DNA of 64,000 nucleotides, from NCBI GenBank assembly GCA_963971285.1, contig OZ020256.1, positions 2,978,501-3,042,500 of the forward strand, in the 5' to 3' direction. The notes below the pieces were generated by a model. The model searched no databases. It was not told the DNA's origin and saw only the letters and a list, made by a program, of their open reading frames with translations. Position numbers and translations under genes: made by a program. The stretch is from Astropecten irregularis (taxonomy: Eukaryota; Echinodermata; Asteroidea; Paxillosida; Astropectinidae). Shown piece after piece: positions 30,779-38,420 of the stretch (the stretch's first letter is position 1; each line of letters begins with the position of its first letter).

Positions 30779-31696
30779 GTTTAACTACCTATTGGCACTG
30801 ATGTACATTTTGACCTTCAATTTCCCATTAGAACGAGGTACTGAATACCATAATTATTTTAAGAGCGTTTTGTTAAACTGCAATAAACCGAAGTACGTGT
30901 TCCACGAAAGGCTGTGTACTTGAAAGTACATTAACTACATGCACGACAAAGCATTTAGTTTGAAGCCTTAACTGGTGAAAAAAAATATTTTATGTATCGG
31001 CAGCAATTTTTCCATAATTCTCCAAATGTATGACTTCGGCAGTGAGGACATGGTTTCTGCTCGTGGGATTCTCTCAGTACATGTGCAAACTGATTTTTCT
31101 GTCGACTATGACAATAGCCATCCGCACAGATACCAAGACCCCTTTCACAAGCCTTGAAGAGCTCCATCCTTCGCTCTTGCTAGGGATTTTTACTCACAAA
31201 CTTCACCCAAAAGCTACTGCTTTGATGCCTCTTACTTCAGAACGGAGCAGGGCGTATGAAATAGAGCAGAAGCCGAAGCCGAAGCCACAGCCAAGGCCGG
31301 ACATAAATAGTCATCATTGTATAGGATTGTGTTATACTTACAGTGAACGAAGACTTGACTGGCCTGCCTCGTGAAAAGGAAATCCGAACGTTAAGATTTG
31401 ATTATTCATTCACTGAAAAACAAAACAAAATAAAAATCAAGAAACCAATTAAGCAAGTAATTATTAAAGCACTGAGACAAGAAACTATGCATAATGTTTC
31501 AGATTATAGCCTTATTTAATTTGTAATATGTGATAAACAATATTCATTGACAGTGTACATTATTGACTGATCTTAAATTACTCGGTGCTGATACAGTTTA
31601 TAAACCAAGATTCACCATAATGCTAGCAAAGTGACTGTCTGGTGCCTGACAAAGTTTCTATTTGTTCTAAAATCACAATGGTTGTGCATTAAACCC
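30779..31696. other. gene-free stretch
   Basis: No supported gene. A GAAGCCGAAGCC run near 31269 recalls family E subterminal repeats but is too short to assign. Confidence 0.4.
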
Positions 31697-32304
31697 ACAA
31701 CCACCACCACCACCACGACACAATGACACCACAAGCACCACCACCACCACTATGACACCACCATGACACCACCACCACCATGACACCACCACCTCCACCA
31801 CCACCACCACCACAACAACAACAACAACACCAACATGACACCACCAGCATAATGACACCACCACCACCACAATGACACCACCAGCGCCATGACTTCACCA
31901 GCACTACCAGCACCAACATGACACCACCACCACCACCATGACACGACCACCAGCACCGCCACCATAAAACCAACATGACACCACCACCACCACCACCACC
32001 ACCATGACACCAACATAACACCACCACCACCACTACACCAACATGACACCACCACCACCACCACCACCACCACCACCACGACACCAACATGACACCATCA
32101 CCACCATGACACTACCACCACCACCATGACACCACCACCACATCAACATAACACCACCACCACCATGACACCACCACCACCACACCAACACGACAACACC
32201 ACCACCACCATGACACCACCACCACCACTAAGCCCCCCCCCCCCCCCCATCACCATGACACGACGACCACCACCGCCGCCATGACACAACCACCACCACC
32301 ACTA
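31697..32304. repeat. CAC/CCA trinucleotide-based satellite-like tract
   Basis: About 600 bp of CCACCACCA interspersed with TGACACCA and AACATGACACCA, forming a higher-order unit of roughly 12-20 bp rather than a pure triplet array. A C17 run lies near 32234. The minus strand reads through as Val/Trp/Gly/Cys-rich frames, which are an artefact of the repeat. Confidence 0.95.
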
Positions 32305-33076
32305 TGTATAATGGGAAATTGTTTACAGGTCTGCAGCGCCTTTGGAATCGTCTGCATATAACGACTACATTGACGCACTGTGAGTCAAACTCAAAGATTA
32401 CTAATTGCTTTCAATATGGATTCGTCCATGAGAAAAGTGAGGTAAGCTGAAAAGTTTCGTGTTCAAAAGTTTCAAATCCCCCCCCCCCGAATTGTCTCCA
32501 TAATTATGTAAAATGGCATACACACAATACCGTCTACAAAATGAGGTAATTTGCAGCACGATGACATTTACATATGAATCAAAACTGGATAAAGTCATTA
32601 TTGACCAATGGTCCTATAATCCCAGTGCAATTTTCGTTGGTAATACATGTACATAATACTCCAAGTTGAAGTGTACACATAGCAGTATACACCATAGCCT
32701 GCGTGTGTTACAAAGACATCTCCAAACATTGAATCAATAGCCGAACAACTCCTGGTGTGTGTTTTTTGTTCACCTTCAGCGGCCCTGAGCTAATGGATCC
32801 AAGTCCCTGATACATTTTTAAAAAATGTATCAGGGACTTAACTACCAGAGTAAAAATCCCTTGCGTGTTTCACGGATGCAGATGGGATGACAATAGTAAA
32901 CATTGCTGTCATTTTTACCTTTATGTGATAAATATCTCTCAGCATGACATAATCCACGGACTAAGTTACATGAAGACTCCAAAAAACAAACCCACACACT
33001 GCGAATGGCAATGCCAAGTCGGTCAGTGCAATGAGGTACAAATCTTACCACCACCATGGCCAGTGGCTGTAACTGT
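32305..33076. other. gene-free stretch with perfect palindrome
   Basis: No supported gene. It holds the palindrome listed at 32801 and a C-run near 32480. Confidence 0.45.
32801..32839. repeat. perfect 39-bp palindrome
   Basis: Arms of 19 bp (AAGTCCCTGATACATTTTT and its exact complement) are separated by a single A. Such a perfect inverted repeat implies recent origin or selection. Confidence 0.95.
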
Positions 33077-35600: not shown

Positions 35601-35617
35601 CTACTCTCTTAATGTAA

Positions 35618-35853
35618 AAGAGTGAAAAACCACTCTAAAAGAGTGAAATTACCACTCTTACAAGGAGCCATATGGCGGACAACTCTTTTTAGAGTGAAAA
35701 AAAGAGTGGTCATAATTCACTCCTAAAAAGAGTGAAATTTCACCTTTTAAAGAGTGACGAAAACCACTCTTTAAAAAGAGTGAAAGAGTGACTATCACTC
35801 TAAAAAGACAACTCCTTTTGGAGTGTTTACAAAGCACTCTTTTAAGGAGTGAA
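35618..35853. repeat. left AGAGTG dyad array
   Basis: About thirteen exact AGAGTG or CACTCT hexamers plus several one-off variants (GGAGTG, CACTCC) fall within about 240 bp. Many pair into dyads with a short A/T spacer, for example CACTCTTTAAAAAGAGTG near 35764 and CACTCCTAAAAAGAGTG near 35719. Confidence 0.9.
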
Positions 35854-36593
35854 CATGTCAAACTTGAAAAGACTTGAAATTTTTACTAAGTGAAGACTAT
35901 ACTGTCGGTGAGCATGTCAAAATAAAACACTGTGACAAAATCAGCAGTTCCATTTCAAATTGCAACGATGCAGCTGTTGAAAGACGAAACGATTCAAACT
36001 TCCACATGATTGGATGACAACCTGTTGTACATGCAGAGTACATAAAATTATACATATCAACTTGAAGTTATTGTACAAGACTACTAAAATAAATGGAACA
36101 TAACACAATTTCAATTCAGGATAAAAGTATTTTATTTTCCAAAAAAGATTATAAAAAAAACCTCCACAGGACAATCCTATGCAAACATCAGAATTAAAAA
36201 TTCATTACTTAATTATTTCTTCTCAATGTCTTAAATTTCGAGACCACACCCTAATTGATTTTTGAAAGTATTTTTTCTTGTTCTGTTGTTTTGTTGCGAC
36301 TGTACAGGAGGGGTGTGACTGGAGGTATACTAACTGAACAATCCACGAAATAATCGGCAGAAGGTTTTAGGGTTGCAAAAAGTCCAAGAGCAACACAAGC
36401 CGGATGGTTAATATTCCCATGTGCAGCTGCACAAAGAAATCCCTCACATTCAAATGTTCAAAATTATCTTGTATAAATTTAAGTCTCAGGGATTCCAGAT
36501 TTTAAAAGAAATTGTCTGAACAGTTCTGAAATATGGAGAAACACAACCCGATACAAAAGTGAAATCAGGGGAAATCATGAGAGTTCCTAAGCT

Positions 36594-36862
36594 GGAATTT
36601 TATGTGTAAAATTGATCTGAAAGTTGAATTGATTGCCTAATTTATTAGCCTTCAAATGAGGTATCGCACGGAAAAATCAATTAATGTCAATTTGTGATGA
36701 CATATGTCAAAAATTCAAATTGAAATCAAATTGACATTAATTAATGTATAACTTCCCATTGATGGATTTGTTTGTGCGATGCCTCATTTGAAAGCTAATA
36801 ACTTAGGCAATCCTACAAAATTATTAATTCAACTTTCAGATCAATTTTTTACATAAAATTCC
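36594..36862. repeat. foldback element nested in the 2.8-kb element
   Basis: Arms of about 100 bp: GGAATTTTATG, AATTGATCTGAAAGTTGAAT, TCAAATGAGGTATCGCAC at left reappear inverted at right (GTGCGATGCCTCATTTGA, ATTCAACTTTCAGATCAATT, CATAAAATTCC), with an AT-rich centre containing TTAATGTCAATTTG in both orientations. It contains a minus-strand AATAAA (36640-36645) that could serve the gene upstream. Confidence 0.85.
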
Positions 36863-36955
36863 GTCCAAAATCGGTAAATTCATAAAATAAAACTACCCCT
36901 GATTGTATAAACAAACCCAGGTATGTAATTTATGAATGTTGGCCTAGCTTACCCC

Positions 36956-37266
36956 TCAATTTGCCTCATGTATCGTACCATTTTCACGGTACAGTTCTCT
37001 GACACTGGGCATTAGTAAAACTCTAAATTTGTATACGATGCCCTCAAAGAAGTTGAAGAAGGTTTGCAGCGGCTTTGCAAAGTGTACACCAAATATGTAG
37101 TGAACCTTGAAGAGGTGGTCAAAAGCCTCACGAAGAGAACCTCCTGCAGGGATGGTCATAGTCATACTCATAGCATCCGCCATGATGAAGTACTCACTGT
37201 CCATTTCACCGAGGGCCAGGATTAATTGAAGGGTTGGGTGTAGGTTGCCTCCTTCGTTGTTGCGAA
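36956..37266 (-). CDS. small uncharacterised protein, exon 2 (terminal)
   Basis: Open from the proposed acceptor GTTGAGCAG (cut before TTCGCAACAACG) to the TGA at 36956, giving about 103 codons. The residues are HPTLQLILALGEM, EYFIMADAMSM, SLREAFDHLFKVHYIFGVHF and LQTFFNFFEGIVYKF, then a charged tail. This pattern (a short beta-like core with a D/S-EYFIMAD turn, then an amphipathic 'LFK-HYIFGV...FF-F' helix pair) reminds me of the C-terminal module of large uncharacterised protein families in invertebrates and fish, from memory only. Joined to exon 1 the phase fits exactly (CAA G|TT). An alternative acceptor (after ATTCAAG, or after GGGACAG) would run into early stops. The function is unknown; no catalytic motif is visible. 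Confidence 0.58.
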
Positions 37267-37734
37267 CTGCTCAACATCTGTCCCATCAGCCTTGAATGAG
37301 GAAACCAAAATAAAGATTATTAATATTATTAAAACATTTGCATACAATGTTTATCATAATCATGCCAAGTACTTGGAGCAATTGTGCACTTGTGTAGTTG
37401 TAAAAGTCGTAGGCCTGTGTAGGCCTATGCTAAGTATGTGCACTTGTGTTCATTATTTACTCTATGCTTCGTGACTATAAATAGGCCCTATGACTGCCGA
37501 AGTCTTACAAATTACACGTATACGGCGATGCTAGGCAGGCCCTAGTCTCGTGTGTTCTGCACTACAGCCTACACTACACCGGTATAAAGGCCTAACGTTA
37601 GGCCTAACGTTAGACCTAGCCCACGTACCGTACGACGATTGAGCAGCCTAACAATTTACAAATGACACGAATAACTACATTATAACAAACCTACGTACGG
37701 AAAGCAATAGCTTAATCCACTAACAAAAAGTTAC

Positions 37735-37810
37735 CTTGAAATTTCTGCTGGATTTTTTCAACCGTTGCAACCTCAAACACCGGGCCAAGCCTCTTCCAAA
37801 CGTTGTCCAT
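37735..37810 (-). CDS. small uncharacterised protein, exon 1 (start)
   Basis: ATG at 37808-37810 opens 25 codons (MDNVWKRLGPVFEVATVEKI, then QQKFQ) ending at a good donor, CAAG|GTAACT. An in-frame TAA six codons upstream makes this the first possible Met. The 468-bp intron (37267-37734) is ordinary in size. Upstream, 37800-37980 is GC-richer and contains a YY1-like ATGGCGGC core about 67 bp from the ATG, consistent with a promoter, though this is inferred. The two exons give about 128 residues, without signal peptide or membrane segment. Confidence 0.55.
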
Positions 37811-37982
37811 TCTCAGTTGCAGTACGCATTATATACGTTAACGTGTGTGCCGCTGTCGCCTACGCCGTACAAAAACAATGGCGGCCGTTGAAACTTTTTC
37901 AGATCATGAGCGCGTACGTAATATGCAAAGTAGTACTGACTACGAAAACGTTTGTGATTGGCTGCTTGTGGTAAACAAAAAT

Positions 37983-38407
37983 CACTCTAAAAAGAGTGAC
38001 TTTTTTATTTTAGTGAAATCCATCCGGCGTCCGCGAGCTAACGAAAGAAGTTTGCATGCCTTACTCCAGGGGTCGAAAACCATTGAAAAATATCAATTTT
38101 TTTAGAATGGAAAGTTTTCCCCAAAACAAACAAACCCCCCCAAAAGCTATGGAAGGTTTCAGTGGCACATTAAAGCATTAAAGAAGACCTTATAGTCTTC
38201 CATGTACGTTTCACTCGATATAGAGTGACTACCGAAACACTCCACGTTTAGAGTGGTATATACGAGCGCTCCATAAAGAGTGATTCAACTTTTAAGACGA
38301 AACTCAAACCGGGAGTGTTTTTTCCACTCGACTAAGAGTGAAGTTCACTTTTAAAAGAGTGAATTCAATATCACTCTGCAGACGGAGTGAGTTTTTCACT
38401 CTATTAC
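37983..38407. repeat. right AGAGTG dyad array
   Basis: About nine exact hexamers with variants (CACTCG, CACTCC, GGAGTG). Clear dyads include CACTCTAAAAAGAGTG (37983-37998) and CACTCGATATAGAGTG (about 38212-38227). It is sparser than the left array, with a gap between about 38000 and 38205. Confidence 0.88.
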
Positions 38408-38420
38408 ATTAAGAGAGTAG

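Follow-up and report, generated by a model that had tools for sequence, protein, structure and literature searches.

A small non-autonomous DNA transposon family of Astropecten irregularis with TA target duplications and the relic of a gene akin to one found beside tnp2-like transposase genes

We describe a 2,814-bp transposon unit at positions 35604-38417 of a 64,000-nucleotide stretch of Astropecten irregularis DNA (the window; C20:2978501-3042500 of the 475.7-Mb source assembly), which belongs to a small family of cut-and-paste DNA transposons that are non-autonomous. The gene that it holds in broken form is probably not a captured host gene but a transposon's own second gene. The reading we favour, with a probability of about 0.66, is that the unit arose by deletion from a CACTA/EnSpm-like (CMCT-clade) DNA transposon with TA duplications and is itself non-autonomous. 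Our confidence is held at that level because no autonomous copy was found, the ends are not of the CA...TG type and exon 1 of the gene has no partner. Superfamily membership is something we infer only, since no autonomous partner with these ends came to light, and we likewise infer that ends and gene share one lineage, which transposase moves those ends and what the arrayed dyads inside them bind.

The limits of the unit were set by comparing the flanks of 20 copies and by the empty sites of one copy, L015. Its 27-bp terminal inverted repeats (left, 35604-35630, plus strand, beginning CTCTCTTAATGTAAAAGAGTG; right, 38391-38417, minus strand) differ by one mismatch, give the termini CTCTCT...AGAGAG and are bordered by a TA duplication on the left (35602-35603) and on the right (38418-38419). 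A pattern of these repeats, allowing up to 3 mismatches, matched the window twice, both times at the element's ends, against a shuffle mean of 0.01. The inverted ends proposed in an earlier note on this DNA are real, the arms 35601-35630 and 38391-38420 agreeing over 30 nt at 97%, and its proposal of one mobile unit at about 35601-38420 stands in all but the exact limits: the outer C and G beside the TAs are flank, because most other copies do not have them. Elsewhere in the window there is a 600-bp imperfect CCA-type tandem array (31695-32302), where strand asymmetry is strong (GC skew about -0.33 to -0.38 over 31001-33000).

A genome search with the 2,820-bp stretch returned at least 121 matching pieces (the best 40 of 118 candidates being scored). 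Near-full-length copies comprise the window copy and at least 8 others at 94-98% identity, and there is a shorter subfamily of at least about 8 copies, whose identity is roughly 80-89% over the left and middle portions and mostly 95-98% over the right end. A 269-bp imperfect inner palindrome (36594-36862), present in the long subfamily, unmatched in the short one and with a few partial relatives at C22:14439308, C22:14446227 and C22:14685020, is probably a nested insertion, a MITE of another family. TA stands on both sides in 13 of the 20 copies whose flanks were compared; one copy (L010) has TG on both sides, and an end or flank is missing or damaged in six (L016, L017, L018, L025, L026 and L027). 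L016 and L017 have common flanks and were counted as one insertion; the other copies have unrelated flanks, with homology stopping at the terminal repeats.

The target site itself could be read from empty sites. Copy L015 sits in repeated sequence, and its flanks, joined by a single TA and used as a query, matched ten places at 94-100% over query positions 51-220 (best 100%), eight of which span that stretch fully; in three of these (L079-L081), read letter for letter, the 38 letters round the junction are identical to the join. The filled copy matches the same query at 1-91 and 89-220, an overlap of TAC, and because the C of that overlap is also the element's first base, the duplication is TA. 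The junction of the corresponding query for copy L019 was spanned at 84-88% in the best 40 of 3,174 candidates, an alignment-level match only. A target duplication of CCTATA was not borne out by these empty sites or by the flanks of the 20 copies, since CCTATA/TATAGG is an inverted coincidence and the empty sites of L015 carry a single TA. A duplication reaching beyond TA was also rejected: in the flanks of about 15 copies and of related MITEs, compared by eye, only L013 and L019 agree at 2 bp, which is about chance. Dispersed copies that share both ends and gene, the TA duplication and the single-TA empty sites show that the element has moved, the earlier note having named multiple copies with common ends and gene as support for a mobile unit, and with its terminal inverted repeats and its lack of intact coding capacity it has the features of a MITE or other non-autonomous DNA transposon.

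Immediately inside the terminal repeats lie arrays of CACTCT/AGAGTG dyads (left, 35631-35857; right, 38211-38390), with one further perfect dyad at 37983-37998. The left 300 bp hold 9 dyads (shuffle mean 1.30) and the right 300 bp hold 7 (shuffle mean 0.62), each count being reached in 0 of 200 dinucleotide shuffles, and two interior 300-bp stretches hold 1 and 0 dyads, with no excess, so that the description of dense arrays at both ends is upheld. Subterminal repeats are usual in CACTA elements.

The ends are also found in much shorter elements. The pattern CTCTCTTAATGTAAAAGAGTGAA (up to 2 mismatches) occurs at 201 places in the genome and the pattern CTCTCTAAATGCAAAAGAGTGAA (up to 1 mismatch) at 302, the reversed control giving 0 for each; the two sets of places overlap, and pairs were judged among 100 of the 201 and 100 of the 302. 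Inverted end pairs among the places listed mostly span about 190-260 bp, and the short elements read between such pairs carry the CACTCT/AGAGTG motif. For instance, the MITEs L060 and L061 have TA on both sides and hold AGAGTG or its complement 7 and 9 times, their dyad counts alone not being significant (34 and 38 of 200 shuffles reach them); four others (L066, L076, L077 and L078) have one damaged end. The window family evidently has ends in common with an abundant MITE family, and because these short MITEs have the same ends and the same dyad motif, the arrays travel both by themselves and in company with the gene.

Among the 100 of 201 and 100 of 302 places, none proved to be an autonomous copy with CTCTCT ends, and no tnp2-like transposase ORF was present in the 20 copies read or inside any CTCTCT end pair listed; the inserts within L018, L023, L024 and L025 gave no tnp2-like match. 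Loci considered as autonomous copies and rejected were L057, which has a broken end; L033, a 478-bp left part followed by other DNA, with a 56-residue tnp2-like piece outside; L065, a solo right end; and L066, a MITE.

The gene within the unit lies on the minus strand and has two exons. Exon 1 (37810-37735) opens with an ATG at 37810-37808 and ends at a donor placed by eye (AG/GTAACT); exon 2 (37290-36949), in which we see the probable remnant of a tnp2-linked second gene's last exon, follows an acceptor placed by eye (TTCAAG) and ends in a TAA stop. The two-exon structure proposed earlier holds as a relic, not as a functional gene, exon 2 being broken in 19 of 19 copies: in none does any reading frame run without interruption from the acceptor as far as the conserved stop. 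L027 is without the usual exon-2 acceptor, and L025, the copy nearest to an open exon 2, keeps 106 of 108 codons, but with the last part in a shifted frame. An alternative in which exon 2 ends in a splice donor was dropped, since the conserved frame stops at TAA there. The upstream region, previously called GC-rich, is richer only mildly (0.44 versus 0.375 for the whole element). Selection on exon 2 is not supported, exon 2 and intron being equally diverged between the subfamilies (identity 0.915 versus 0.909). Exon 1 is identical in both (76/76), which is no clear sign of selection because the upstream stretch (0.976) and the right end (0.986) are nearly identical too. Searches gave no convincing relative of exon 1 (best E 4.6), and the exon-2 peptide of the window copy matched nothing in Pfam at E up to 1 and a single entry in the PDB, at E 0.6.

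The relatives of exon 2 were more telling. A protein search of the genome with exon 2 gave 34 matches, 4 of them outside the window family and 34-40% identical (C2:69730; C4:186171; and, with equal scores, C1:12171058 and C1:14747171), and each of the four has a tnp2-like ORF on its own strand at a distance of 0.7-5.0 kb. Two further protein queries brought the domain loci to 64, of which 17 belong to the window family and the other 47 form 38 clusters. As a raw count, with no random-placement control, 25 of the 38 clusters have a tnp2-like match on their own strand no more than 12 kb away (in 21 of those 25 tnp2 is upstream, at a distance of 3.6-6.3 kb); 2 are within 9 kb of such a match on the opposite strand and 11 are farther away. 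C1 is rich in both kinds of match. In all seven relatives read by eye (L058, L059 and L067-L071) the domain exon starts near a splice acceptor, within a few codons of its position in the window. On this protein similarity, exon 2 is akin to a gene that sits beside tnp2-like genes. At two places the domain is repeated consecutively, six times at C15:8507718-8511364 and four times at C21:5921834-5923807, in each case downstream of a single tnp2-like match, an arrangement suggestive of tandem duplication of the last exon within the element.

Members of the domain match Pfam weakly only (E 0.033 and 0.086, in one of seven members each), and a structural model of it (mean pLDDT 74, seven sequences) found no fold in the PDB (best E 2.1); a single-sequence model of the tnp2-like protein (mean pLDDT 35) was of no use. 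We take the exon-2 domain to resemble the C-terminus of SAMD3-like proteins, such as vertebrate SAMD3. A pairing of SAMD3 with transposons was not met in the titles and opening abstract lines of the papers listed, a narrow basis for calling it unpublished.

The relative on C2 lies in an element that carries both a tnp2-like gene and the second gene (C2:63534-73495). The ends of this element are identical 21-bp repeats, CACTGCAAAAACTCGGGTGTT (CACTG type; CACTGCAAAAA ends), with CA on both sides, a 2-bp duplication. Its right end stretch holds 14 AACACC/GGTGTT dyads, a number reached in 0 of 200 shuffles, and its left end holds 3 (11 of 200 shuffles), not significant by a strict standard. Adjoining the second gene on the same strand is a 789-codon ORF with weak zinc-finger matches, which scores below the cut-off against Transposase_21 (tnp2; E 0.016 and 0.028 for its two forms) and whose core matches the genome at 95 places, many of them within open frames 600-950 codons long. 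It has C(2)C (417-420), H(3)H (627-631) and, at 651, the E of RYEAKH, motifs in the order described for the CMCT clade, the catalytic residues among them being putative. Close beyond the element's right end lies, on the minus strand, a 620-codon open frame (L063, about C2:73521-75380) whose repeat tract is long and rich in proline/glutamine. An element on C25 also carries both genes and was delimited by comparing two copies, both of which start with TACACTCTC, end with TGTGTGTA and hold GTAAAATTTTAC palindromes. TA stands beside CA...TG ends in the two copies; the left end is uncertain, as the three bases before the left TA are also common to both, and the dyad excess at the ends is not significant (49 and 25 of 200 shuffles).

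Comparison with known systems places the window element close to, and not wholly within, the CMCT clade. In the available text of PMC12730594, elements of this clade have target duplications of 2-5 bp, CA...TG termini in most cases, and transposases with a reported motif order that includes C(2)C and H(3)H. The TA duplication of the window element falls within that range and the C2 ORF has both motifs in order, whereas the window ends are CTCTCT...AGAGAG and the window element is without a transposase. The same text describes ESTA, EnSpm-like transposons with TA duplications, which are alike in combining a TA duplication with an EnSpm-like context and unlike in being fungal and in carrying TET/JBP genes, a comparison made by description and not by sequence. 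SmTRC1 and related CACTA elements of animals, as far as the available text of PMC1636069 goes, show 2-bp duplications in 7 of 14 copies and ends that begin CCC rather than CACTA; they resemble the window element as animal CACTA relatives with 2-bp duplications whose ends do not start with CACTA, and differ in the CCC itself. If the favoured CACTA-like reading is right, the ancestor would have had two genes, one for a zinc-finger/tnp2-like transposase and a second one of several exons, and an internal deletion would have spared the ends, exon 1 and the final exon of the latter. The terminal repeats would be bound by an autonomous relative's transposase, the arrayed dyads by that transposase or by the second protein, and the unit would have been excised and then reinserted at TA dinucleotides.

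The main rival is that the ends and the MITEs belong to a TA-targeting family of another superfamily, for instance Tc1/mariner or a Harbinger-related lineage, and that this family picked up a CACTA-like second-gene piece. The TA duplication in 13 of 20 copies, also the target duplication of Tc1/mariner elements, speaks for this, as do the abundant MITE family with the same ends, the departure from CA...TG and the lack of a tnp2-like ORF between such ends among the places listed; against it, arrays of short dyads, with other dyads, are also found at the ends of the C2 element that carries both genes, and the copies read revealed no transposase belonging to another superfamily. We consider this rival rather improbable.

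Alternatively, the exons might have been captured from a host gene together with its promoter and intron, as in a Pack-TIR element, which we think unlikely. The exon-intron structure is kept and the upstream region is mildly GC-richer, and certain domain clusters lack a tnp2-like match in their neighbourhood, among them five loci on one strand over 1.5 Mb of C11 (C11:20181968-21728940), with none within 170 kb, which may be host genes of the same family or decayed elements. Against capture, no parental locus with DNA similarity outside the family appeared among the best candidates scored, and the four nearest protein relatives all adjoin tnp2-like genes. Tgm-Express, a Pack-TIR/CACTA-type element described in the available text of PMC1947982, likewise has terminal repeats round exon-intron gene fragments; its cargo consists of host gene fragments, whereas that of the window element is akin to a transposon-linked second gene. 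The earlier note had left the choice between a captured host gene and the element's own gene of an undescribed family; we favour the own-gene form, because the gene is related to the second gene beside tnp2-like transposase genes, with the amendments that the copies are decayed and non-autonomous and that the wider kind, CACTA/EnSpm-like, is already known. That note had also held that arrays occurring alone, with the gene at a conserved locus that lacks them, would speak against a single element: arrays do occur alone, as short MITEs, and relatives of the gene do occur without these arrays, yet within the source genome mostly beside transposase genes and not at a demonstrably conserved host locus. 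Segmental duplication without transposition, which the shared flanks of L016 and L017 (seemingly one duplicated insertion) might recall, is refuted by the empty sites and by the unrelated flanks of the other copies, which end at the repeats, and is highly improbable.

In itself the window element is ordinary, a member of a small non-autonomous family. What appeared to be a gene-capturing transposon is likely what remains of a DNA transposon with two genes. It draws attention to a protein domain, linked to a transposase, for which Pfam offers no model at E up to 0.03. This leads us to a wider proposal, offered as a possibility toward which we do not yet lean: animal CACTA-like transposons may share a conserved second protein, with this C-terminal domain, that acts together with the tnp2-like transposase on arrays of short dyads specific to the family. 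Ends, dyad and second protein would form a matched set in each family, and the window family would be the defective relic of such a set whose autonomous member has gone. If the second protein does read the dyads, then CACTCT/AGAGTG in the window family, AACACC/GGTGTT in the C2 element and perhaps GTAAAATTTTAC in the C25 element would offer a comparison for how transposons evolve new end specificity. If the reading of a shared second protein is true, host proteins of the SAMD3 type would be domesticated copies of it, or its donors.
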